This document shows positions 1-19,218 of a stretch of DNA of 21,151 bases, piece after piece (position 1 is the stretch's first letter; the number at the start of each line of letters is the position of its first letter). Origin of the DNA: a virus. The position numbers and the translations under genes were made by a program. The notes under the pieces were generated by a model. It searched no databases, was not told where the DNA came from, and saw only the letters and a list, made by a program, of their open reading frames with translations. Where the stretch lies: positions 1,376 through 22,526 of IMG/VR virus record IMGVR_UViG_3300039159_000306; one strand, 5' to 3'.

Positions 1-162
1 AAAAAGAAACAACGAATCGTTAAATACATTAACTACCCTATTTCTATTTCTAACAGCTACTAAGTTAACATCAAATAAATCGTATTTTAACTTAGTTATT
101 GTTGGAATTAATCTTTTTAGAACGAAGTTTGTTGTTCGGTTGCTTAATATTGCTTGGCTCAT
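1..162 (-). CDS. Partial CDS overlapping the patatin 3' end (N-terminal 54 codons)
   Basis: An open frame starts at ATG (162-160) and stays open for 54 codons to the left window edge, so only the N-terminus is present. It overlaps the last 71 bases of the patatin gene in a different frame. The translation begins MSQAILSNRT and continues with mixed charged and hydrophobic residues, including KYDLFDVNLVAVRNRNR at about 26-42, which looks like real protein rather than a shadow frame. By contrast, the patatin tail in the overlap is low complexity (Asn, Lys and Ser rich), as expected if this frame is the constrained one. I do not recognise the family. An overlap of 71 bases is long for this window, but nearby genes also overlap by tens of bases. 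The function is unknown; the position suggests the next gene of the late operon. Confidence 0.6.
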   Translation of the reverse strand, partial: MSQAILSNRTTNFVLKRLIPTITKLKYDLFDVNLVAVRNRNRVVNVFNDSLFLF

Positions 163-1054
163 TTTGTAGTGTTATAAATTCTAACAATTCATTCTTTTTA
201 TTTTCCCATAAAGTTACACCTTTTTCAATTAAGTAAGGTACTTCTTTAATAGAATCCATTACAACTTGTTTATCCAATTTAATATCACAATTTAGATACC
301 GATTGTTTAACAACGAGGTACAACCATACTTTGTAAATTCAATTGAAGCGTCTAAAATAACATCAACAATTGGAGTTGCGTTATTAGATTTAATCCATTG
401 TAAAGAACCAGCAGTTTCAAGATTTTTAAATTCTTTTTCATAATATCCCGTACCAAATGATAACAAATTAATGTCTTCCAATTTAGCTATATTCTTCTTA
501 ATCAAATGGAAGAGTAAGCACAAACTAGGATTATTTGCATAAACTCCACCGTCAATTAAAGTCTTATTAACTGGATAAAAGTAAGTTGGAGCAGTACTAG
601 TAGCTTTTGCAATAGTTGACAGCCTAACATTCTTATACTTATCATTATCAGACTCATACACAACTGGGACTCCAAGCTTAATGTCATAACTTGTAATTAA
701 GATTGGCTTTAAAACTTCACCTAATCTAACATCACCATAAATTTCATCAATAATATTTAACGCGTTTTCTGGATATTTGGGTAATCTATAACCGTCTAAA
801 GACTTAATTTTATATCCCAAAGACCTTTTGAATATAGTATCACAAAGTTTAACATACATTTCTAAAACATCTTTGCTTGCGTAGTTAAGCTTGGGATGAA
901 CTAAAGCTGTTGCAATGATTCCCCCCGTAGATGTGCCCGATACATAATCAAACTTATCAATAATCTTTGACTCCAATTCTTTTTCAAAATTAGATAAAGC
1001 TGATAAAGTTAATACTCCTCTGATACCACCGCCGTTAATTGCTAATCCTTTCAT
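92..1054 (-). CDS. Patatin-like phospholipase
   Basis: A 320-residue predicted lipid acyl hydrolase of the patatin fold, which cleaves acyl chains from membrane phospholipids with a Ser-Asp dyad. All expected motifs are visible: oxyanion-hole loop GGGIRG at 8-13, nucleophile elbow GTSTG at 40-44 (Ser42), the stretch ATSTAPTYF at 151-159, and DGGVYANNP at 168-176 with the catalytic Asp168. No signal peptide is seen. I chose the ATG at 1054 because it overlaps the upstream stop as TAATG and sits right before the conserved N-terminal strand; an earlier ATG at 1087 would add 11 residues. The C-terminus is low complexity and is overlapped by the next gene. Length and motifs resemble bacterial patatins, including CBASS effectors of the CapV type. 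In a phage it could act in lysis, membrane penetration or host interference; the sequence does not decide. Confidence 0.9.
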   Translation of the reverse strand: MKGLAINGGGIRGVLTLSALSNFEKELESKIIDKFDYVSGTSTGGIIATALVHPKLNYASKDVLEMYVKLCDTIFKRSLGYKIKSLDGYRLPKYPENALNIIDEIYGDVRLGEVLKPILITSYDIKLGVPVVYESDNDKYKNVRLSTIAKATSTAPTYFYPVNKTLIDGGVYANNPSLCLLFHLIKKNIAKLEDINLLSFGTGYYEKEFKNLETAGSLQWIKSNNATPIVDVILDASIEFTKYGCTSLLNNRYLNCDIKLDKQVVMDSIKEVPYLIEKGVTLWENKKNELLEFITLQNEPSNIKQPNNKLRSKKINSNNN

Positions 1055-1410
1055 TATAAATAGGTATAAGAAGCTCGCATTGTCCAACTAAAACTATTAC
1101 TTAAAATACCATTAGGATAAGTTATAGTAGTTTGAGTATTCAAAGCTGATGATTTAACTTCAACGATCCTTTTAATTGACCATTCGGCTTGTGATTCAAC
1201 TGCTCCAATGATTGAGCTACCCACAAAAGTTGTAGTTGTAATTGGAAAAGTTGTACCACTAACTACTTCATCAACTCTTAACAATGATAATTGAAGGGTA
1301 GGTATAATTGGCCCACCTGAAATTACTTGTAAAAGGTTATTGGATATTCCTTCTTTAATGCTTAATGCTTCTAATAGAGTTATTATTCGTTGTCCAGTGT
1401 ATTCGGTCAT
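1054..1410 (-). CDS. Small beta-rich protein of unknown function
   Basis: A 118-residue protein that I do not recognise. The first 30 residues look helical (MTEYTGQRIITLLEALSIKE), followed by strand-like Thr/Ser/Val-rich sequence and a C-terminus of alternating hydrophobic and polar residues (SFSWTMRASYTYL), which suggests a small beta sandwich or barrel. No signal peptide or membrane segment is seen. Its stop overlaps the patatin start as TAATG, so translation of the two is probably coupled. It is the first gene after the hairpin terminator at about 1421-1448, so it opens a new segment with patatin and the partial gene at the left edge. It could be a minor virion protein, but that is a guess from context. 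Confidence 0.7.
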   Translation of the reverse strand: MTEYTGQRIITLLEALSIKEGISNNLLQVISGGPIIPTLQLSLLRVDEVVSGTTFPITTTTFVGSSIIGAVESQAEWSIKRIVEVKSSALNTQTTITYPNGILSNSFSWTMRASYTYL

Positions 1411-8446: not shown

Positions 8447-8858
8447 TTATTAAATATTGAACTCGTTTATTACACGCAATGTGCCAATAATAATATACTT
8501 CCCCTTTAACTAACATCTTTACTGAATATTCTTTGAAACTTAACCTTTTTGATTTGTCCTTAAACCTGTTGTTTTTAATAGTTGTTATGCTTTTACTATC
8601 TTCCCCAATATAAATAAAACATGTTTTATATTGAAAGACTTTTCCATTTAATAAATCTTCCATTAACAAAGCAATCATTTTTGTAAATACCCATTGTAAG
8701 AATATCCAAAATTGTCTGTACACTTTATAACGGGTAATCTTATAGGGATATAAAAATCTATGATTTATCTTTTCCCTTAAAACATCACAAATATTAAGTG
8801 AATGGAGATGAAGATTTAAAATCTTAGTTGATCTTAATTGGTTTACTTGAGTATCCAT
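8370..8858 (-). CDS. Small basic protein of the tail-gene cluster
   Basis: A 162-residue Lys/Arg-rich protein. Two starts are possible: ATG at 8894 (174 aa, 71-base overlap with the preceding gene) or ATG at 8858 (35-base overlap); I chose the latter for the smaller overlap and its A-rich leader GAAAAAGCT. Residues about 48-75 form a hydrophobic helix (FWIFLQWVFTKMIALLMEDL) followed by LLNGKVFQ, a pattern like small phage proteins in which a helix precedes a G-x-x-V/F strand. A Tyr/Trp-rich stretch (GEVYYYWHIACNKR) and an arginine tail follow. The 3' end overlaps the next gene by 77 bases. I recall similar short proteins in crAss-like tail clusters but cannot name the function. Confidence 0.6.
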   Translation of the reverse strand: MDTQVNQLRSTKILNLHLHSLNICDVLREKINHRFLYPYKITRYKVYRQFWIFLQWVFTKMIALLMEDLLNGKVFQYKTCFIYIGEDSKSITTIKNNRFKDKSKRLSFKEYSVKMLVKGEVYYYWHIACNKRVQYLINEKIVSGVTYQGRTPSFARRRDVGN

Positions 8859-9495
8859 AGCTTTTTCTATCAGATGAAAAGTTGATATTTGCAAATTGAT
8901 CCATAAAGTTCTGATTCATTTTACCTTGAACGCGAGCTTGAAGAATCTTTAAGTTCTTATTTTTAGTTGCTAAAGCTATTTGATTGAATGCCAGTTGATT
9001 ACCTTCATAAACTTTGCGAGAAATATCAATGTAAATCCAATAGTATCCAAGAGCTTCAGCTTCAGCTTCAGTAATTAAAGGCAAATCATTTTCATCTTTC
9101 TCATAGCTTTTATAAATAATAGTTACCAAAAGGTTTGGTGCAACAACAATTGAATCACCTTTAGAAACGTATTTTACATAACCGCCTTGTCCATACAAGT
9201 TGCTTTGTTCATTATTAATTGATTGAGTAATCCTATCATAAGTAGGGAAAGTTACTGATTCTATTTGTAAAGCGCAATAAGGAAGTTCAATAATCCCATC
9301 TTTATCAGATGTAAAATCTTGTTGATAAATAGAATGATGTAAATTACCAATTAACCTTAAACAATTTAAAGCAGTATCCAAATAATCATCTTCATTTGGA
9401 CTAGGATAAAAAGCTTTAATAGCCGCAATTCCAGCAAAAATAGAAAGCTTTTTTGTTTTGTTTGAGTTTTCTATATCTAAGTTTTTAAAGCTCAT
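8824..9495 (-). CDS. Tail ring/tubular protein (crAss-like, P22 gp4 or T7 gp11 type)
   Basis: A 223-residue protein of ring type. Residues 20-50 form a helix bundle start (FAGIAAIKAFYPSPNEDDYL), then strands (IIELPYCALQIESVTFP, 68-84), a Tyr/Gly-rich loop (NLYGQGGYVKY, 99-109), and a second strand pair (VAPNLLVTIIYKSYEKDEN, 118-136). The stretch DLPLITEAEAEALGYYWIY (137-155), with a helix rich in Glu and Ala followed by aromatic residues, is characteristic of tail ring/adaptor proteins in crAss-like phages. A basic helix at 175-205 and a Tyr/Ser-rich tail follow. Such proteins stack as dodecameric rings between portal and muzzle. It overlaps the preceding ring gene by one base (TAATG), so equal-level production is likely. 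Which ring it forms cannot be told from sequence alone. Confidence 0.65.
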   Translation of the reverse strand: MSFKNLDIENSNKTKKLSIFAGIAAIKAFYPSPNEDDYLDTALNCLRLIGNLHHSIYQQDFTSDKDGIIELPYCALQIESVTFPTYDRITQSINNEQSNLYGQGGYVKYVSKGDSIVVAPNLLVTIIYKSYEKDENDLPLITEAEAEALGYYWIYIDISRKVYEGNQLAFNQIALATKNKNLKILQARVQGKMNQNFMDQFANINFSSDRKSYGYSSKPIKIN

Positions 9496-10166
9496 TATTC
9501 TTTAATTCCCCCGCTAGCGTTTCGTCCCAAAAATCTATAATACCAACTTGCCCAGTTACTTGTAATGTCTTTTATAATATAATCAACAGCACCGGGTGGA
9601 ACAGGATAAGTAGATGTTTCAGGATTTAAGTTACAACAACTATATTTATTTACATCCATTGGATTCACTAATACTCCCGCAAAACTTATTTTATCAATAA
9701 TTTCTGTTGGGGGATTAAATAAGAATCCATGAGTAATTCCTTCATGAGACCTTAACACTACATAAGGTCGGTTAATTAAACTTTTATTGCGATACTTGTT
9801 GTACATATAATGATTATCGGTATAATAAGCAAAAGGAGTTTGCCTATTTACTGAACCAATATAGCTATTAACAAAAGTATTGGGTAATTCAAAATGCTTA
9901 ACGTTTTTATTTGTATCGGTATCACAACATAAACTGAATTGTTCGCAATCTAAAGGTATACAATTTATTTCTTGGATTATCCCATTTGTCTTTAAGCTAC
10001 CTTGAGTCAGCATATTTGTTATATAACTATTTCGCGATGCTAAAACAATATGGGACAATTGTTCAAGTGAAAAGTTCATTCTTGTAGTTGTAGATAATCC
10101 AGCTTCTAAGTTATTTCTAACCGCACTTGTTATCTTATTTAAACTCCAGGTTCCTTGATCATTCAT
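9495..10166 (-). CDS. Tail ring-type structural protein
   Basis: A 223-residue protein. The N-terminal 55 residues are helical; then comes a beta region with Cys at 69, 74, 80 and 81 (INCIPLDCEQFSLCCD, 67-82), an F-x-L-P-N stretch (92-96), and YIGSVNRQTPFAYYTD at 102-117, which matches a pattern I recall in crAss-like and T4-related neck or ring proteins (paired CC, then a strand-loop ending in an aromatic pair). A second CC lies at 177-178, and the C-terminal YPVPPGAVDYIIKDI (187-201) with W/Y-rich end looks like an oligomer-contact helix. It follows the terminator at about 10195-10229, so it is the first gene of the next transcript segment, and overlaps the next ring gene by one base. The family call is moderate; the exact ring position is unknown. 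Confidence 0.55.
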   Translation of the reverse strand: MNDQGTWSLNKITSAVRNNLEAGLSTTTRMNFSLEQLSHIVLASRNSYITNMLTQGSLKTNGIIQEINCIPLDCEQFSLCCDTDTNKNVKHFELPNTFVNSYIGSVNRQTPFAYYTDNHYMYNKYRNKSLINRPYVVLRSHEGITHGFLFNPPTEIIDKISFAGVLVNPMDVNKYSCCNLNPETSTYPVPPGAVDYIIKDITSNWASWYYRFLGRNASGGIKE

Positions 10167-10244: not shown

Positions 10245-11252
10245 TTATGCGTTTGTAACAAAGTTAACACCTAACGCACCAACACCTGCTTGAAGAATAC
10301 CTTGTTGATAAACACCGGAAGATGTATAGCTATATTGGGTATCAAGAAATTGGTGAAAGAATCCAGTCAAAGCAGTAGTTGTAAGCATTGATTGACAAGT
10401 AGATTCATTAAGGAACAACACAAAACGTGAAGTGTTGTTCATATTTGAATTATTCATTTGACCAACTGAAGGAACAATAGTAGTCATAAAACTTATTTCG
10501 GTATACAATTGATTTTGAACAGGAATTTCATCAAAATCAGGGAAGTAAGCCGAGTTGTTACCACCTACAGTTTTGTTACCAAATTCAATAACCGAACCAC
10601 GACCAACACCACGTACAAAGGCTTGGTTTACAATTGGATTAAACGTTGTAACAACAGAGGAAGGAAGCCCATTATCACCAAGTGCTTTAAAGCCTACAAA
10701 GGTTGTACCTTCATCATCAGCTTCAAATACAAGACGAGTAATAGAAGTAGCATTATCAACAGTTGCAAAAGTACCAGTAGTTGGAGCAACAACGTTAATA
10801 ACTAAATCACGGTTACGAGCATTGCGATCAACAACCATTGAATTGTGCAATTTAGCAAGTACAATTGCAGCGGTATCACCAACTTGCAAGTTTACATTAT
10901 AAACTACTTTCATTGCAAATTCATACTCAGGACGAGCGAAACGAGCAGCACGTGAAGTAGTTTGGAAATTAAATTCAAAAGACACCCGGGTATTAGCAGC
11001 GGGTACAGTACCCACAGTAATTTGAGCACCAGTAGCGGAGTTCAACTCTTGACGGCTACGACGATTTGCCAATCCGCGAACGAGACGAACATTTGAAGTT
11101 TGAGGCACACGAAGAGTATGGAAACCTTCCATATTACAAATAGAAGCAGTAGATGCAGGAACAATTGCACCAGCAAGGTTTGTAAAAGAAAGATTCAATT
11201 GACTTGGGCTATTGATAACCCGGCGTTTTTCAGGCAATAAAAATTCACTCAT
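10245..11252 (-). CDS. Abundant structural protein, auxiliary capsid or head-neck candidate
   Basis: A 335-residue protein rich in Ala, Val, Thr, Asn and Arg. The N-terminus (MSEFLLPEKRRVINSPSQ) is a likely arm, followed by strands and a basic loop (RLVRGLANRRSRQEL, about 57-71). Much of the remainder is strand-like (RVSFEFNF, LVINVVAP, RLVFEADDEG), consistent with a beta-sandwich virion protein. It has no membrane segment or signal peptide. Arg is almost always CGT/CGC here, and GC content is visibly higher than in flanking small genes, a feature shared with the capsid gene; together with the strong terminator this suggests high expression. In crAss-like phages an auxiliary capsid protein is encoded a few genes after the capsid gene, so that is my best candidate role, though a tail-tube or neck protein is also possible. 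I do not recognise a definite family motif. Confidence 0.6.
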   Translation of the reverse strand: MSEFLLPEKRRVINSPSQLNLSFTNLAGAIVPASTASICNMEGFHTLRVPQTSNVRLVRGLANRRSRQELNSATGAQITVGTVPAANTRVSFEFNFQTTSRAARFARPEYEFAMKVVYNVNLQVGDTAAIVLAKLHNSMVVDRNARNRDLVINVVAPTTGTFATVDNATSITRLVFEADDEGTTFVGFKALGDNGLPSSVVTTFNPIVNQAFVRGVGRGSVIEFGNKTVGGNNSAYFPDFDEIPVQNQLYTEISFMTTIVPSVGQMNNSNMNNTSRFVLFLNESTCQSMLTTTALTGFFHQFLDTQYSYTSSGVYQQGILQAGVGALGVNFVTNA

Positions 11253-12919: not shown

Positions 12920-14416
12920 CTAAACGTTCTCAGTAATAATTGTAGCAGCATAAGGGTTAGTTACGCGGCAACCAATCCAACCCAACAAAGTTTGGGTAGA
13001 ATAATCACCAGTGTGGGAAACCAAACCTGATTCACCACCGCTCATCCCACCAATACCAGCGTTACCAGACCTAACAAGTGCACGATTCTTCAAGGTCAAC
13101 AAGTTAACATTGGGAACAGCACCACCTTCGGTTTGATAAAGACCTGTATCGATAAAGATTGCATAACCACGATCTTGGTAATGGTTAGTCAAAGCTTCGT
13201 CAACTACAAAGTTAATTACGTTACCTTCATAGATGTAACTGTTAAGAGTTGCACCTACTGTAATTTCATTAGCCATACGAGCATTCTTAACTTTAGATTT
13301 GGTTACTTTATCTTCAAATGACACGTCATCTTTAGTATAGAACCAAGCACCGTTAGGATTCAAAGCAAACACTTTAGATTCCAAAGCACGGTATTTAGCC
13401 CGGGCAAAACGACGGTTTACAGCACAAGTAATGTGATTACCAGTAGACTGACCACGACGATCACATACTGATTCAATTGCAGAAATAAAGTCATTAGTTG
13501 ACAAGTTATTATCTGAATAGTCCACATAATAAGCTTCTTTTTCATATTGAGCAATCAATCCATCACCAGAGATAATATCTTCACCACGGTTGTTTTGGAT
13601 ATACGACCGGTTGGTAGCTGGGTTCATAGAAGACCGACCAAATACAATTGCATTATTCTTTTGGATTTGGAAATCATCAAACAATTTCTGCTCAATAGAA
13701 TTGAACAAATATACTTTGAAGTCTTTTCCACCCTTCATTGCTTTCTCATAATCAGCTTCTTCCATAAAGTACTGATCTTGAGTTGCCTTCAAATCAGAGC
13801 TATAAGATTGGTCAACCCGGATTTTAGTCAAATAGTTTGTATGGGTTTCAGTTTGATACCAAGACTTAGAACTTCCACGTTCAGAAAATTCTTCGTTAGC
13901 TTTATACAAGAAACGCAAACGGCTATTAGCCCGAGTATACCGTACATCAAGCCTTTCAGCAGGATTGTTTGTCCACAACTTAACAGTAACCAAAAACTCA
14001 TTGTCAGAAATACGCTCTGGTTCAGTTACAGCATAAAGTTGTTGAGTATTTGTCAAAGCAAAAATATCACCTTGAGCAAACATCCGGTCATTAACAAACA
14101 ATTGACCAGTTTCATTAATAGCCAAAGCAGTTGTAAAATCACGACTTACACCAACAGTTGGAATTTGAGAAATATCAAGATTCCACTTGTATTGCCAAGT
14201 CATTACTTCTTGTACTTTAGTCATAGACTTTTCATCTTCAACATAAAGATTACCCATTGCTTCAAAAATAGTAGCAAGGCCCATTTTGTGTTGATTCCTC
14301 ATCCGGTTCAATCCAGGAAGATGTTCAGGATTACGACCCATAAGTTCCATAAAAGAACCAACAGAATACGTTTGATTACTGAACCGAGCAATTGTATTTT
14401 TTTGTACTTGTAACAT
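12920..14416 (-). CDS. Major capsid protein (HK97 fold, crAss-like)
   Basis: A 498-residue protein whose length and motifs match crAss-like major capsid proteins, which form the icosahedral shell. Visible features: an N-terminal helix region with FMELMGRNPEHLPGLNRM (22-39); central IISGDGLIAQYEKEAYYVDY, like the G-D-G-I/L-I-x-Q-x-E stretch of the family; a helix then strand near ITCAVNRRFARAKYRAL; and a C-terminus with GLVSHTGDYSTQTLLGWIG followed by CRVTNPYAATI, the usual family ending. GC content and CGT/CGG Arg use are higher than in neighbouring small genes, in line with high expression. The stop is TAG. The leader is A/T-rich (AAGAA before ATG) with no Shine-Dalgarno site. It follows the acidic scaffold candidate by 27 bases and is closed by a hairpin terminator. 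Confidence 0.9.
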   Translation of the reverse strand: MLQVQKNTIARFSNQTYSVGSFMELMGRNPEHLPGLNRMRNQHKMGLATIFEAMGNLYVEDEKSMTKVQEVMTWQYKWNLDISQIPTVGVSRDFTTALAINETGQLFVNDRMFAQGDIFALTNTQQLYAVTEPERISDNEFLVTVKLWTNNPAERLDVRYTRANSRLRFLYKANEEFSERGSSKSWYQTETHTNYLTKIRVDQSYSSDLKATQDQYFMEEADYEKAMKGGKDFKVYLFNSIEQKLFDDFQIQKNNAIVFGRSSMNPATNRSYIQNNRGEDIISGDGLIAQYEKEAYYVDYSDNNLSTNDFISAIESVCDRRGQSTGNHITCAVNRRFARAKYRALESKVFALNPNGAWFYTKDDVSFEDKVTKSKVKNARMANEITVGATLNSYIYEGNVINFVVDEALTNHYQDRGYAIFIDTGLYQTEGGAVPNVNLLTLKNRALVRSGNAGIGGMSGGESGLVSHTGDYSTQTLLGWIGCRVTNPYAATIITENV

Positions 14417-14443: not shown

Positions 14444-15250
14444 TTACCAAACTCTTTTTACTTCATCACTAGTTTTAATCGGAACCATCTTTTTCGTTTC
14501 GGTTTTACTTACCGGACGAGTCTTTTCAAATTCTTTTCTTATTTTGGGCAAGGCTAATATTGAAAGAGCAGCTTGTATCTTACCATCGGGAGTATTCAAA
14601 AACTTATCAAAATCACCCGACATAATAAACTCTTTTGCTTCTGACTTATCATCCATGTCCAATTCAAAACCATATAAGCCTTTTACGTCATTCAATAAAC
14701 TAACAGCTTTAGTGTTATCGTCCATTTGCTTGTTTGCAATTTTATTCAATTTCTCTTGCTCTTCTTGTTGTAAAATCTCTTCTAGTTGTTTCTTTACTAA
14801 ATTGACTTTAGTTTTGTAAGAAGGTAATTGTTTTAACATCTCTAATTCTGTATCCAATTCATCTTCATCCAAATCAGGGTAATCACTTTTTAGTTTAGCC
14901 AACATTAAATCATCTTCTGAATAATCATCAAGATTTGTTGGTTTGTTTAAAACGCTTTCTAATTCCCCGTTACGATACATTTCAAGAACTTTCATTTCAT
15001 TAATGTCTTGTTTTGGAGTATTTACTTTTTCGTTCCATCTAAGCACACTAACTAGTTGAGCATCTGAAAGAGTATCAATATCGTATTCCAATTGATTGTC
15101 TTCTTTACCAGTAGTTATTGTTGAAGCTCCAAGCCGTTCTTTAACAAGCTCTGATAAATAGTTTACTATTACTTGATCTTCTTCTTCGTTAACCTTAACA
15201 AAACTTGTAAGGTCAAGTTGATCATCTTCAATAATTTGAATATCGTCCAT
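14444..15250 (-). CDS. Acidic coiled-coil protein, candidate scaffolding protein
   Basis: A 268-residue protein directly upstream of the capsid gene. Residues 1-60 are strongly acidic (MDDIQIIEDDQLDLTSF and on), the middle has long Asp/Glu-rich helices (SEDDLMLAKLKSDYPDLDED, 111-130), and about 145-180 is a charged Gln/Glu/Lys helix (KKQLEEILQQEEQEKLNKIA) likely to be a coiled coil. The C-terminal 35 residues turn basic (KIRKEFEKTRPVSKTETKKM and on). An acidic, helical body with a basic C-terminus, placed just before the major capsid gene, is the classic layout of phage scaffolding proteins such as that of P22, where the basic end binds the capsid protein. I do not recognise a sequence family, so the role is inferred. 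It lies 4 bases after the 122 aa gene. Confidence 0.65.
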   Translation of the reverse strand: MDDIQIIEDDQLDLTSFVKVNEEEDQVIVNYLSELVKERLGASTITTGKEDNQLEYDIDTLSDAQLVSVLRWNEKVNTPKQDINEMKVLEMYRNGELESVLNKPTNLDDYSEDDLMLAKLKSDYPDLDEDELDTELEMLKQLPSYKTKVNLVKKQLEEILQQEEQEKLNKIANKQMDDNTKAVSLLNDVKGLYGFELDMDDKSEAKEFIMSGDFDKFLNTPDGKIQAALSILALPKIRKEFEKTRPVSKTETKKMVPIKTSDEVKRVW

Positions 15251-15254
15251 CGTA

Positions 15255-15623
15255 TTATATGTATTCTAAAACAATTAAATTCTTATTTATTATGCTACTC
15301 TTAACGTCTTCACAATTCCTATCACACAAGTTCAATTGTTTTTTCATTAAACCTATAAGTCTTGTAGCTATTTCACTTTTACAAATTATATCGCAATTTA
15401 ATCCAAATTTTGCTAACAACTTGTCATAATCAGTATTTGATAAGCAACTATTAGAATTACAAAGTTTAGTATGTTCAATAAGCTTTAAGATAGCATCAAG
15501 TAGAAAATAAGTAAAACTTAAATCTAATTCACAATCCTCTCCCAACAATTGAAGTTGATAAAGCTCGGTGAATTGGTCATACCCAATATCGTTGACCAAA
15601 GTTGAAATTTCTTTATTAATCAC
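15255..15623 (-). CDS. Small Cys-rich helical protein
   Basis: A 122-residue protein with seven Cys (31, 55, 60, 77, 81, 100, 104). It is mostly helical and contains two copies of a helix ending in a Cys pair: LIEHTKLCNSNSC (48-60) and LMKKQLNLCDRNC (92-104). The same helix-plus-Cys pattern occurs twice at the C-terminus of the preceding 338 aa protein, so the two proteins may be related or may bind each other. Spaced Cys pairs could hold metal or form disulfides; the phage cytoplasmic stage favours metal or late oxidation in the particle. No family is recognised. It overlaps the 338 aa gene by 8 bases. Confidence 0.65.
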   Translation of the reverse strand: MINKEISTLVNDIGYDQFTELYQLQLLGEDCELDLSFTYFLLDAILKLIEHTKLCNSNSCLSNTDYDKLLAKFGLNCDIICKSEIATRLIGLMKKQLNLCDRNCEDVKSSIINKNLIVLEYI

Positions 15624-16632
15624 AGTTGCTTAGACAAGTATCACAATCACGCTCACAAGTATCACAATAGTTCAATAACGCTTCAATAATCTTGTTAACC
15701 TTAACAAAATCATTCAATTGATTGGTTATATCAATTTGTGTATAGTTTGTAATAATATTATAAATTTTTAATTTATTCATAAATAATTGATAAATTGCTT
15801 GTACGGGAGATATTTTATTTATAAACTTCGTACTACCACAAGCTTTACCACTATTGCACATCAAAGCTTTAAGTAACTTATTATAACATTTATCAATTGA
15901 ACAACGGTTAACATAAATATTACTATTGCCCAAATATTCAATTTTATAAATACCATCTTTTGTAAACTTATAAATTGATGAACTCAAACTTGCAATCAAT
16001 AATGTTGTTACCAACGAGTTATTATGAGCAAATCTAATACTTACAATCAAAGGTATATTTGTTAAATTGCTAAACTTTATTTCTTCACACTTACTAGTAC
16101 AATCTGATTCTAAACTATCACAAGTTGGTTCTATAATTAATTGATTTCCAACTACTAGCCCATAACTTGTATTAGAAGTTCCACAACAATCAGTTATTGC
16201 TAAATCAACTCTATAATTACCGTTTGTATTGGGATAAAAATTAAAAGTAGGATTAGTTGTTGTTGAAATCAAAATATAACTATTATTAACAAATTTATAA
16301 ACTTGCCATTCATAGCTCAAAGTCAAACAATTACATACTGCCGCAATGATAGGAGACAATACATATTGAGTATTAACAACATATTGCTTTAATAACGGTA
16401 ACGATACTTGCAAATTGTTATTAGTAAAATCATTTGTACTATGGTCAACATCAATCTGAAGCGTTTTACCACTAGTTGTTTGAATTGTTGAGCCTTGTAC
16501 ACTTGTGTTTATAACAAAAACAATTGTATCAAAGGTAAGGGTAAGTAAACCCACATTCTTTATAATTGTAACTTTGGCCAAATTACCAAGTTCTTGATAA
16601 AAAACGGGTACACTTTTATCAAATATTATCAT
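15616..16632 (-). CDS. Ig/PKD-like Cys-rich protein, candidate head-fibre or capsid decoration protein
   Basis: A 338-residue protein with 16 Cys. Residues 1-90 are strand-rich. Residues about 92-165 resemble a PKD/Ig-like domain: CLTLSYEWQVYKF (102-114), then NGNYRVDLAITDCCG (137-151), the usual Y-x-V-x-L-x-V-T-D last strand. Residues 171-245 hold further strands (IPLIVSIRFAHNN). The C-terminus turns helical, with LLKALMCNSGKAC (253-265) and a cluster C323-x2-C-x3-C-x2-C-x3-C337 that could bind metal or form disulfides. Ig-like domains are common in phage surface decorations that bind mucin or glycans. In crAss-like phages a head-fibre-related gene lies next to the portal gene, which fits, but is an inference. 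It overlaps the 128 aa gene by 14 bases and the 122 aa gene by 8. Confidence 0.6.
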   Translation of the reverse strand: MIIFDKSVPVFYQELGNLAKVTIIKNVGLLTLTFDTIVFVINTSVQGSTIQTTSGKTLQIDVDHSTNDFTNNNLQVSLPLLKQYVVNTQYVLSPIIAAVCNCLTLSYEWQVYKFVNNSYILISTTTNPTFNFYPNTNGNYRVDLAITDCCGTSNTSYGLVVGNQLIIEPTCDSLESDCTSKCEEIKFSNLTNIPLIVSIRFAHNNSLVTTLLIASLSSSIYKFTKDGIYKIEYLGNSNIYVNRCSIDKCYNKLLKALMCNSGKACGSTKFINKISPVQAIYQLFMNKLKIYNIITNYTQIDITNQLNDFVKVNKIIEALLNYCDTCERDCDTCLSNCD

Positions 16633-17005
16633 ACATCAATTTCTTATAAGCCGTTAAACGATTTTGTTTTTCTTCAAATGTATACAAATCCAATTTGTTG
16701 CAAGTAAATACTTTTGATTCGCTCACATATAGTATTATGTTCTTATCAGTCCTAAAGGGAATCTTAATTTCATCAACCTTTTTAACCTTTTTAATTCCAC
16801 ATCTTTCTTTCAAACTTTTCAACCTCAATTTAGTAACTCTTATTTCTTCTGTATTATCACTATTCACTAATATATCATTATATTCTTTTAACTTAATTTC
16901 ATTTTTGCTATCTCGTTGAACTTTTTCTTGATTTCTCCTAGTTTGGTAACGGGGAGATAACGAGTTCCATTTTTCACCATCAAACTTGTATTTCTTTTCT
17001 CTCAT
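16619..17005 (-). CDS. Small basic protein after portal
   Basis: A 128-residue Lys/Arg-rich protein that I do not recognise. It starts MREKKYKFDGEKWNSLSPRY and has a long basic helix region (VTKLRLKSLKERCGIKKVKKV, 58-78) followed by strands (IKIPFRTDKNIILYVSES) and a helical C-terminus. The net charge is clearly positive, so nucleic-acid or capsid-interior contact is conceivable. Its ATG overlaps the portal stop as TAATG, and its own end overlaps the Ig-like gene by 14 bases, which supports a real coupled gene. The function is unknown. Confidence 0.65.
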   Translation of the reverse strand: MREKKYKFDGEKWNSLSPRYQTRRNQEKVQRDSKNEIKLKEYNDILVNSDNTEEIRVTKLRLKSLKERCGIKKVKKVDEIKIPFRTDKNIILYVSESKVFTCNKLDLYTFEEKQNRLTAYKKLMYDNI

Positions 17006-19218
17006 TATCGATTGAAATTTATTTTATCATTATACGGAGACGCATCAATTGTTTGGGCTATTTCAGCTTCAAGTTTCTTAACTTCTATAGACTGTTCAGC
17101 TTGACCCTTTTCTTTCAAGTAACTAAGTTTCTCATCTTCAAATCTTTGATTAATCATCATTTGTTCTCTCCTAAGCTTTAAGTCTTCAGTCAAGTTCTTT
17201 TCTTGAAGTCCCCCAAGAGATTGGATAATTTGTTCTTGTTCTTTTAACTTTGCGTTAAGCTGTTCCAATTGTTTTTGAGCTTCTTGAAGTTGATTGATTG
17301 CTTGCTCTTCTTGTTTATCAAAAGCTTGAGTTAAAGTAAGCGAACGTTTTGTAATTGAGTTGCTCATTAAAACTTTATAAGCAGAAGGTAAATCCAAAGA
17401 TGATTGTTGTAATGCAACTTTTACCAATTCATCACCCATTAACAACTTCTTATTATCATTTTGAGAATCAGAAACAAATATATTAAAATCACAAAGACTC
17501 ATTTTTTCTGATTCAAATGTAAATATCTTATGATTAATAGTATCAGGGATTAAGTAACTAAAAACAGTATCTTCTTTATAGCTTATCCTAGCCATATTAA
17601 TAACAGAAGCTAGAGTACGCTTTATAAGTTCACCATTCAAAAAATATAAATCTTTATTGTTAATTTCCCCTTGTTGGATAGCCATAGTAGAAACAGTCTT
17701 ACCATCACGCTCTTCCATATTCCCCATTGATTGACGAGTTAAGCCAACAGTATTAAGAGCTTGAGTTTCAAGTATTTCTAAATACGCCATAAACGATTGA
17801 AGCATTTGACCTTCTAAGTTTGAAGGATAACTGCCATAATTATTAAATGGAGTTGCCTCATTACCTTCTTGACTCAATGATATTACAAGTGGCATACCAT
17901 TTTTCATATAACCAGCAGTCTTGTTCAACCTTTCAACCATTGAATCACCTAAATCTTGATTAAGATGTTCAGCAACAATATATGTTCCACCGGGACGAGC
18001 CGAATGAAAAAGATTGTTTAATTGAAAATGGGTAATATCATACAAATCTTGAATAGATTTTGTATCAAATATTAAAGATGACTTTTGTGGATTGTTACGA
18101 CCTTTGTACAAACAACCATCATAAGTCAAAGTTGTTGCATAAGGATTTTGTAAAGTACGAGGGGGATATTTAACGCGACCATAACCAAAATAAATACCGT
18201 CTCCAATTTCAATTTTATAACCTTCATAAAGGTTTTGAATAAACCTATTTTCAGACTTTACAGGATTTGGTTCAGTTAGTTTTAAATCATCAATTGGAGC
18301 TTTCATCTTATCGGTAGCAATCCATTCTACATGGAGAACCGATATTAAATTATCCCGTTTTCTTTCTAAACTCATATTATAAACAGTATCCGTATAATTA
18401 TTACCCTCATAAAGATCATGAGCAAGTACTTCATTATAACTAGATATACTATCTCCAATATTATGCTTTCTCAGCAACTCCAATTCTTTTTCTTCAATTA
18501 AAGAACCGTATTGCAATATAATATCACTTACTGAAAGAAACTCCCGATAAACAACGCGATGTTGTTCATTCAACCAAAGCTTATCACCGTGATAGTCTTT
18601 ATAAATATGCTCGGGATTTATCAACTTAGTAATAGGATCTTTATTGAGTTCCCTAATATAAGTACGTCTATATTGACCCCCAACAACACATAAATCTTGT
18701 AAATTTAAATTAAAGAGTTGTTTAAGGTTATGAGATTGAATATAGTATTCCATATAATCTTGAGCCGTTATTTCAAAATCAGCTTGCCAATTTCCCGAAT
18801 ACTTTTTACCAAGCTCTTTTGTAAGTTTCTCTTTCCACTCTTTTGAGTTTTCACCTTCAATTGCTTCTTTCACTTCATCCAACATCATCAAGCGTTTTTG
18901 CTCAAGCTTTAAATTAAGACCTTCCTTGTTTTGACAAGTAATTAAATAATCAAGCTTATTGTTCAATTGATTGTTTACCAAAGATTTAACAATTCTTCCC
19001 ATTAAAGGAATAAAAGGAATCTTCATTGGATGGGCAATTCCATAATTATCAACCAAGTGTTGATACTCCCGATCGTTTCTACGACCATTATAAATATTGT
19101 AACAAAGTGTTTCAAATTGTTTTGAATCGTTATTTACCAATTCTGCAATATGATGTTTGCAAGAATCAATTAAATAATTTTCATCCAATTTGTTTTTTAC
19201 GTTATCGTCGGGTCTCAT
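17005..19218 (-). CDS. Portal protein
   Basis: A 737-residue protein placed right after TerL, as portals usually are. It forms the dodecameric ring at one capsid vertex through which DNA enters and leaves. Visible features: an N-terminal helical part with IPFIPLMGRIVKSLVNNQLN (68-87) typical of the portal start; a DFEITAQDYMEYYIQ helix and LCVVGGQYRR (about 147-185); INPEHIYKDYHGDKLWLNEQ, the clip/stem-region N-P-x-x-I-Y-x-D pattern with HRVVYREFLS after it; and SMGNMEERDGKTVSTMAIQ in the crown-side helix. The last 120 residues are a Gln/Glu/Lys-rich coiled coil (QEEQAINQLQEAQKQLEQLN and on), the barrel of such portals. Length fits crAss-like portals. ATG overlaps the TerL stop (ATGA). I see no frameshift. 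Confidence 0.85.
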   Translation of the reverse strand: MRPDDNVKNKLDENYLIDSCKHHIAELVNNDSKQFETLCYNIYNGRRNDREYQHLVDNYGIAHPMKIPFIPLMGRIVKSLVNNQLNNKLDYLITCQNKEGLNLKLEQKRLMMLDEVKEAIEGENSKEWKEKLTKELGKKYSGNWQADFEITAQDYMEYYIQSHNLKQLFNLNLQDLCVVGGQYRRTYIRELNKDPITKLINPEHIYKDYHGDKLWLNEQHRVVYREFLSVSDIILQYGSLIEEKELELLRKHNIGDSISSYNEVLAHDLYEGNNYTDTVYNMSLERKRDNLISVLHVEWIATDKMKAPIDDLKLTEPNPVKSENRFIQNLYEGYKIEIGDGIYFGYGRVKYPPRTLQNPYATTLTYDGCLYKGRNNPQKSSLIFDTKSIQDLYDITHFQLNNLFHSARPGGTYIVAEHLNQDLGDSMVERLNKTAGYMKNGMPLVISLSQEGNEATPFNNYGSYPSNLEGQMLQSFMAYLEILETQALNTVGLTRQSMGNMEERDGKTVSTMAIQQGEINNKDLYFLNGELIKRTLASVINMARISYKEDTVFSYLIPDTINHKIFTFESEKMSLCDFNIFVSDSQNDNKKLLMGDELVKVALQQSSLDLPSAYKVLMSNSITKRSLTLTQAFDKQEEQAINQLQEAQKQLEQLNAKLKEQEQIIQSLGGLQEKNLTEDLKLRREQMMINQRFEDEKLSYLKEKGQAEQSIEVKKLEAEIAQTIDASPYNDKINFNR

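Follow-up and report, generated by a model that had tools for sequence, protein, structure and literature searches.

The Gene Pair and Its Surroundings

Two adjacent open reading frames on the minus strand encode proteins of 338 aa (A) and 122 aa (B), and overlap each other by 8 nt (Table 1). They lie in the window, the whole stretch of 21,151 nucleotides that was analysed, which represents most of a 22.5-kb IMG/VR virus record. The window is part of a Crassvirales genome, and five IMG/VR contigs, this one included, make up its deep clade. Its TerL matches Crassvirales terminases, and the portal of the L008 relative matches Crassvirales portals (both by tblastn). In the portal tree, the window and the four other IMG/VR contigs form one clade (100/100), separate from the rows for Steigviridae, Suoliviridae, and Intestiviridae taken into the tree.

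Table 1. Positions of the gene pair and its neighbours in the window. THA and THB are gp38 and gp39 of crAss001; P values are from profile ranking.
Feature	Position	Strand	Basis
338-aa protein (A), candidate hub A (THA-like)	15616..16632	-	
122-aa protein (B), candidate hub B (THB-like), GTG start	15255..15623	-	
Portal protein	17005..19218	-	phrog_6547, E 3.4e-46
128-aa protein between portal and A, kept in all five clade members	16619..17005	-	
268-aa protein, gp31 (scaffold) position before MCP	14444..15250	-	top profile match gp31, P 0.0072
Major capsid protein (MCP)	12920..14416	-	relatives in crass-like contigs; position
335-aa protein, place of auxiliary capsid protein (AUX, gp36)	10245..11252	-	gene order only
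Ring protein R2-like (gp40)	9495..10166	-	P 1.7e-4
Ring protein R1-like (gp43)	8824..9495	-	P 1.2e-4

The genes on the minus strand are arranged in the order TerL, portal, 128-aa protein, A, B, 268-aa gp31-like protein, MCP, gp33-like protein, R3/R4-like ring protein, 335-aa protein at the AUX place, R2-like protein, and R1-like protein, followed by further genes up to a 1440-aa protein at the muzzle place. Ring proteins, gp33, and gp31 were assigned by ranking profiles against crAss001 families, AUX and muzzle by gene order only; the 335-aa protein has no profile match among the crAss001 families. For five window proteins outside the pair, the top match in the ranking is the syntenic crAss001 counterpart (P 7e-6 to 7e-3). 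The counterparts of gp31, gp33, R3/R4, R2, and R1 are found in the order of Crassvirales structural genes, with AUX recognised by place only. Only 78 nt lie between the AUX-place gene and the R2-like gene, which leaves no room for a THA/THB pair at the canonical site.

The protein encoded just after the portal is 125–141 aa long in the clade (L008:6349-6762, L027:12310-12735, L035:11768-12181, and L044:2640-3017, in addition to the window), and none of the crAss001 families compared with it is a convincing counterpart. Near the end of the structural block, a gene at 92-1087 (-) of the window encodes a patatin-like phospholipase (PF01734, E 1.1e-19), possibly with a role in lysis or at the membrane. 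The large terminase of the relative G001 (IMGVR 3300025129_000031; L008:9103-11826 (-)) contains a Hint (intein-type) insertion, with Hom_end_hint at residues 275–324 (E 2.4e-10); the window terminase is without it.

Cysteine Content and Conservation

The preliminary description drew attention to four leucine-rich helical segments with cysteines, two in A (C259/C265 and C323/C326/C330) and two in B (C55/C60 and C100/C104), here numbered 1 to 4 in this order. Both reading frames and all four segments are present as described, and the enrichment is confirmed: A has 16 cysteines (4.7%) and B has seven (5.7%), against 0.74% for the remaining 18 window genes, a six- to eightfold difference. The pattern [LMY]C[ND]x1-4C, picked post hoc after the segments had been seen, occurs four times against 0.11 expected from composition-keeping shuffles, none of which reached four in 20,000.

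Neither gene has a real match in PHROGs or Pfam. No match is found by tblastn of both proteins against 50,697 phage records, by a search of genome contigs for the pair, or by scanning IMG/VR with the 338-aa protein alone, and neither the A-domain profile nor the 122-aa protein has a real match among PDB sequences. The relatives in IMG/VR were reached through MCP and portal. The pair is clear in three of the four relatives: L002/G001 (437 and 400 aa for A and B, respectively), L027 (716 and 390 aa), and L035 (398 and 386 aa). These three keep the order of A followed by B between portal and scaffold, with other genes separating the two. The conserved part is the C-terminal ~165 aa in A and the N-terminal ~120 aa in B. 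A of the window aligns with that of L002 over 252 columns at 33% identity (E 4e-34). B of the relatives carries extra sequence after the conserved domain, which in L035 matches fn3 (E 5.5e-8).

The fibre block of the same relatives also contains cysteine-rich DUF5977 proteins (L002:3709-5760, L027:16289-18142, and L035:15649-17241; E 1e-11 to 3e-18), which have no counterpart in the window. Those of L002 and L027 lie between A and B and are EGF-like in look. In the fifth contig, L044, cysteine-rich candidates are at the right place, with no significant similarity to the pair. Directly after a cysteine-rich 264-aa gene, L044:5202-7226 (+) encodes a 674-aa fibre protein with a C-terminal Peptidase_S74 intramolecular chaperone (E 6.4e-13). 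This protein starts with a helical, cysteine-bearing region of ~100 aa; it may represent a fusion of a hub-B-type domain with a fibre, a reading that profiles do not support.

Among the window and the three relatives, nine of the 12 cysteines in the last ~165 aa of A are kept in all four members (C178, C182, C244, C249, C259, C265, C323, C326, and C333), and C330 is kept in three. In B, this applies to two of seven (C60 and C81); C77 and C100 are kept in three members, and C31, C55, and C104 are without conservation. Conservation of the segment cysteines among homologues, which the preliminary description left to be checked, therefore extends to all of those in A and to C60 and C100 in B, and fails for C55 (the first cysteine of segment 3) and for C104 (the second of segment 4); only the window has C104. 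N or D after the cysteine is conserved largely in segment 2 only. This unevenness indicates that segments 1 and 2 are real conserved features and that segments 3 and 4 are only half so.

The single motif L/M/Y-C-N/D proposed for both proteins thus does not hold across the family. What stands of the proposed common helix–cysteine module is that partner genes in the structural block encode strongly cysteine-rich helical domains; the four segments do not repeat a single motif. That the two genes share one duplicated module, as was also suggested, is very improbable. A and B do have the same composition and helices ended by cysteines, and the helical part of A compared with B gives P 0.051. However, profile comparison of A and B stays at P 0.05–0.10, which is not significant, and BLASTP finds no similarity between them. 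Half of the segment cysteines of B and their flanking residues are not conserved, and A and B are distinct families in the three relatives. Duplication is rejected on the BLASTP and profile comparisons.

The end of A, with the spacing CxxCxxxCxxC, could be taken as a putative metal site, with the cysteines binding zinc or an iron–sulfur cluster instead of forming disulfides. The spacing and the conservation of the cysteines suit this idea, as does a sub-threshold match of the 122-aa protein to the TAZ zinc finger (E 0.086). But no metal-binding family reaches its cut-off, TAZ being the best with 13.7 bits against a cut-off of 25, and the spacing is lost in L035. The hubs of crAss001, moreover, use disulfides (PMC10172136). 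Metal binding is thus quite improbable, and by analogy with crAss001 the cysteines of the pair are most plausibly disulfide-bonded. The remark that cysteine-rich virion proteins are little described in this phage family does not take into account that the tail hub and ring proteins of phiCrAss001 are disulfide-bonded (PMC10172136).

Comparison of the 338-aa Protein with THA

In crAss001, the hub around the tail barrel consists of THA (gp38) and THB (gp39) in A2B composition (PMC10172136). Disulfides stabilise the hubs, which hold gp22, a fibre protein (PMC10172136).

A profile of the A domain from the four members was ranked against 114 targets, 57 crassvirus families and the same number of reversed ones. 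THA is the first of the 114 (P 0.0019; P 0.00092 with the helices alone), at an hhalign probability of only 15–23%. Taken as single sequences, the A domains score weakly against THA by HMM (shuffle P 0.013–0.33). THA is followed in the ranking by two virion genes of Cellulophaga phage phi14:2, g083 and g087. The product of g083 (L014:17889-18935 (-)) is a fibre-block virion protein with a helical N-terminal part, and is the second-best match of the helices of A (P 0.0025). The 186-aa product of g087, which is among the top four matches of the A domain, resembles A in its beta-type N-terminal part, its helices, and its CxxxCxxC end. It is encoded directly after AUX and is present in virions by MS according to its record; its statistical support is weak, whether against THA or against the window family.

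An AF2 model of the A domain built from the four sequences (pLDDT 69.4, pTM 0.64) has six strands followed by three long helices, with one cysteine group following helix 1 and another where helix 3 ends. Residues ~173–338 (window 15619-16116) are thus predicted to be a conserved domain of a beta sandwich and a cysteine-bearing three-helix part. Residues 1–170 are beta-rich, with a PKD_4 match (E 0.086) under the Pfam cut-off. A model of the full 338-aa protein from two sequences reached pLDDT 35.7 and was set aside.

Among all BFVD viral models, the best match to the A-domain model is a 184-aa protein of cr118_1 (A0A7M1RVK8, Suoliviridae), with E 8.4e-4 and probability 1.00. The match covers 161 columns, nearly the whole A domain, at a TM-score of only 0.44/0.41. 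The gene was placed at 87607-88161 of MT774379, as the only 184-aa gene listed. It is directly after an AUX-like gene, for which AUX is the first in profile ranking (P 0.002), and shares 4 nt with an overlapping 139-aa gene. Profile ranking of the 184-aa protein itself also puts THA first, weakly (P 0.021). Since this gene was chosen by fold alone, its position at the THA place is an independent check. Like A, the cr118_1 protein has C-terminal cysteines. It differs from A in its canonical THA position and 4-nt A/B overlap, has five cysteines, and is 11% identical. The tenth-ranking BFVD match, a protein of cr110_1, was rejected; it covers only 60 columns and its gene is outside the THA place.

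A PDB fold search with the A domain gives nothing at E<=0.001, and THA is not among the 50 matches listed, though it is in PDB (7QOJ). Since there is no significant PDB fold match, a hub function is something that we infer. Compared with crAss001 THA (PDB 7QOJ, 7QOL, 8CKB), the 338-aa protein shows the same succession of a beta domain and cysteine-bearing helices, has THA as the top profile match of its domain, and is followed by a small helical partner gene with an 8-nt overlap. It differs in having an additional beta-rich N-terminal half and more cysteines in the helical part. The THA gene is placed directly after AUX and before R2, whereas the 338-aa gene follows the portal. The site after AUX is typical of Steigviridae, and the position of the fibre block varies within the order. 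Taken together, profile ranking and the predicted fold suggest with moderate confidence that the 338-aa protein is THA-like.

Comparison of the 122-aa Protein with THB

B is a small helical partner of 122 aa encoded downstream of A, as THB is in crAss001. By eye and in the hhalign register, both have a [ST]-x-x-D-[YL] helix followed by two cysteines. The 8-nt overlap of A and B equals that of crAss001 and of six other pairs. It is weak evidence, because a pair of genes in cr110_1 that is not THA/THB also overlaps by 8 nt. That pair (16197-17085, after the AUX-place gene) was considered as THA/THB and rejected, as it has no profile match. The B profile ranks THB 16th among the 57 families and 57 reversed ones (P 0.25), which is not significant, and the relatives of B differ from THB in their Fn3-like extensions. 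Gene order, the overlap, and the motif hint that the 122-aa protein might be THB-like.

A Probable Divergent Tail Hub or, Less Likely, Fibre Adaptors

On balance, the pair of this Crassvirales phage is probably a divergent hub for docking tail fibres, corresponding to THA/THB. It would have been relocated from the usual place after AUX to the fibre block behind the portal. The absence at the usual site is read as relocation because of the 78 nt between the AUX-place gene and R2.

The main rival to relocation is that the hub was lost and a new fibre adaptor gained. A and B would then be fibre or adhesin adaptors, such as base proteins of head fibres or tail fibres, unrelated to THA/THB, in which a cysteine-stapled helical bundle fixes Ig/Fn3-like outer domains to the virion. 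The pair indeed lies between the portal and scaffold genes, in the fibre block; the head and tail fibre genes of crAss001 are at this place. A differs in length, from 338 to 716 aa, through sequence outside its conserved domain, B has Fn3-like sequence in relatives, and no PDB match to THA is found. The profile search, however, puts THA first, and the best fold match is a gene at the THA place of cr118_1. The empty canonical hub site would also need an explanation of its own. The adaptor interpretation is less likely than the hub.

If the pair is a divergent hub, A would be seated on the tail barrel by its C-terminal beta sandwich and three-helix domain, with the beta-rich N-terminal half pointing outward. 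The small helical hub B partner would be the 122-aa protein from the overlapping gene. Read by eye, the model suggests an up-down-up bundle in which helices 1 and 3 would end on one face, so that the two cysteine groups would lie near each other at the same end of the bundle. Disulfides could form within the A domain and to hub B or ring proteins, and would stiffen the collar that carries the fibres. By analogy with crAss001, disulfide formation, assembly of an A2B collar, and fibre docking may be expected of this pair.

It can be speculated, more tentatively, that the hub left the tail cluster, joined an exchangeable fibre cassette, and gained Ig/PKD-like and Fn3-like modules, the hub itself having become the variable adhesive part. 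We take the pair for a known virion part in divergent form, not for a system of a new type, and found no description of its crassvirus clade.

THA/THB is the attachment point of crassvirus tail fibres, and its structures are from one phage. The hub interpretation directly predicts disulfides in virions. If it is true, this divergent, relocated, and enlarged pair shows how far the hub can change. The domain of a beta sandwich and three cysteine-bearing helices would then help to find hubs in crassviruses without a recognisable one.
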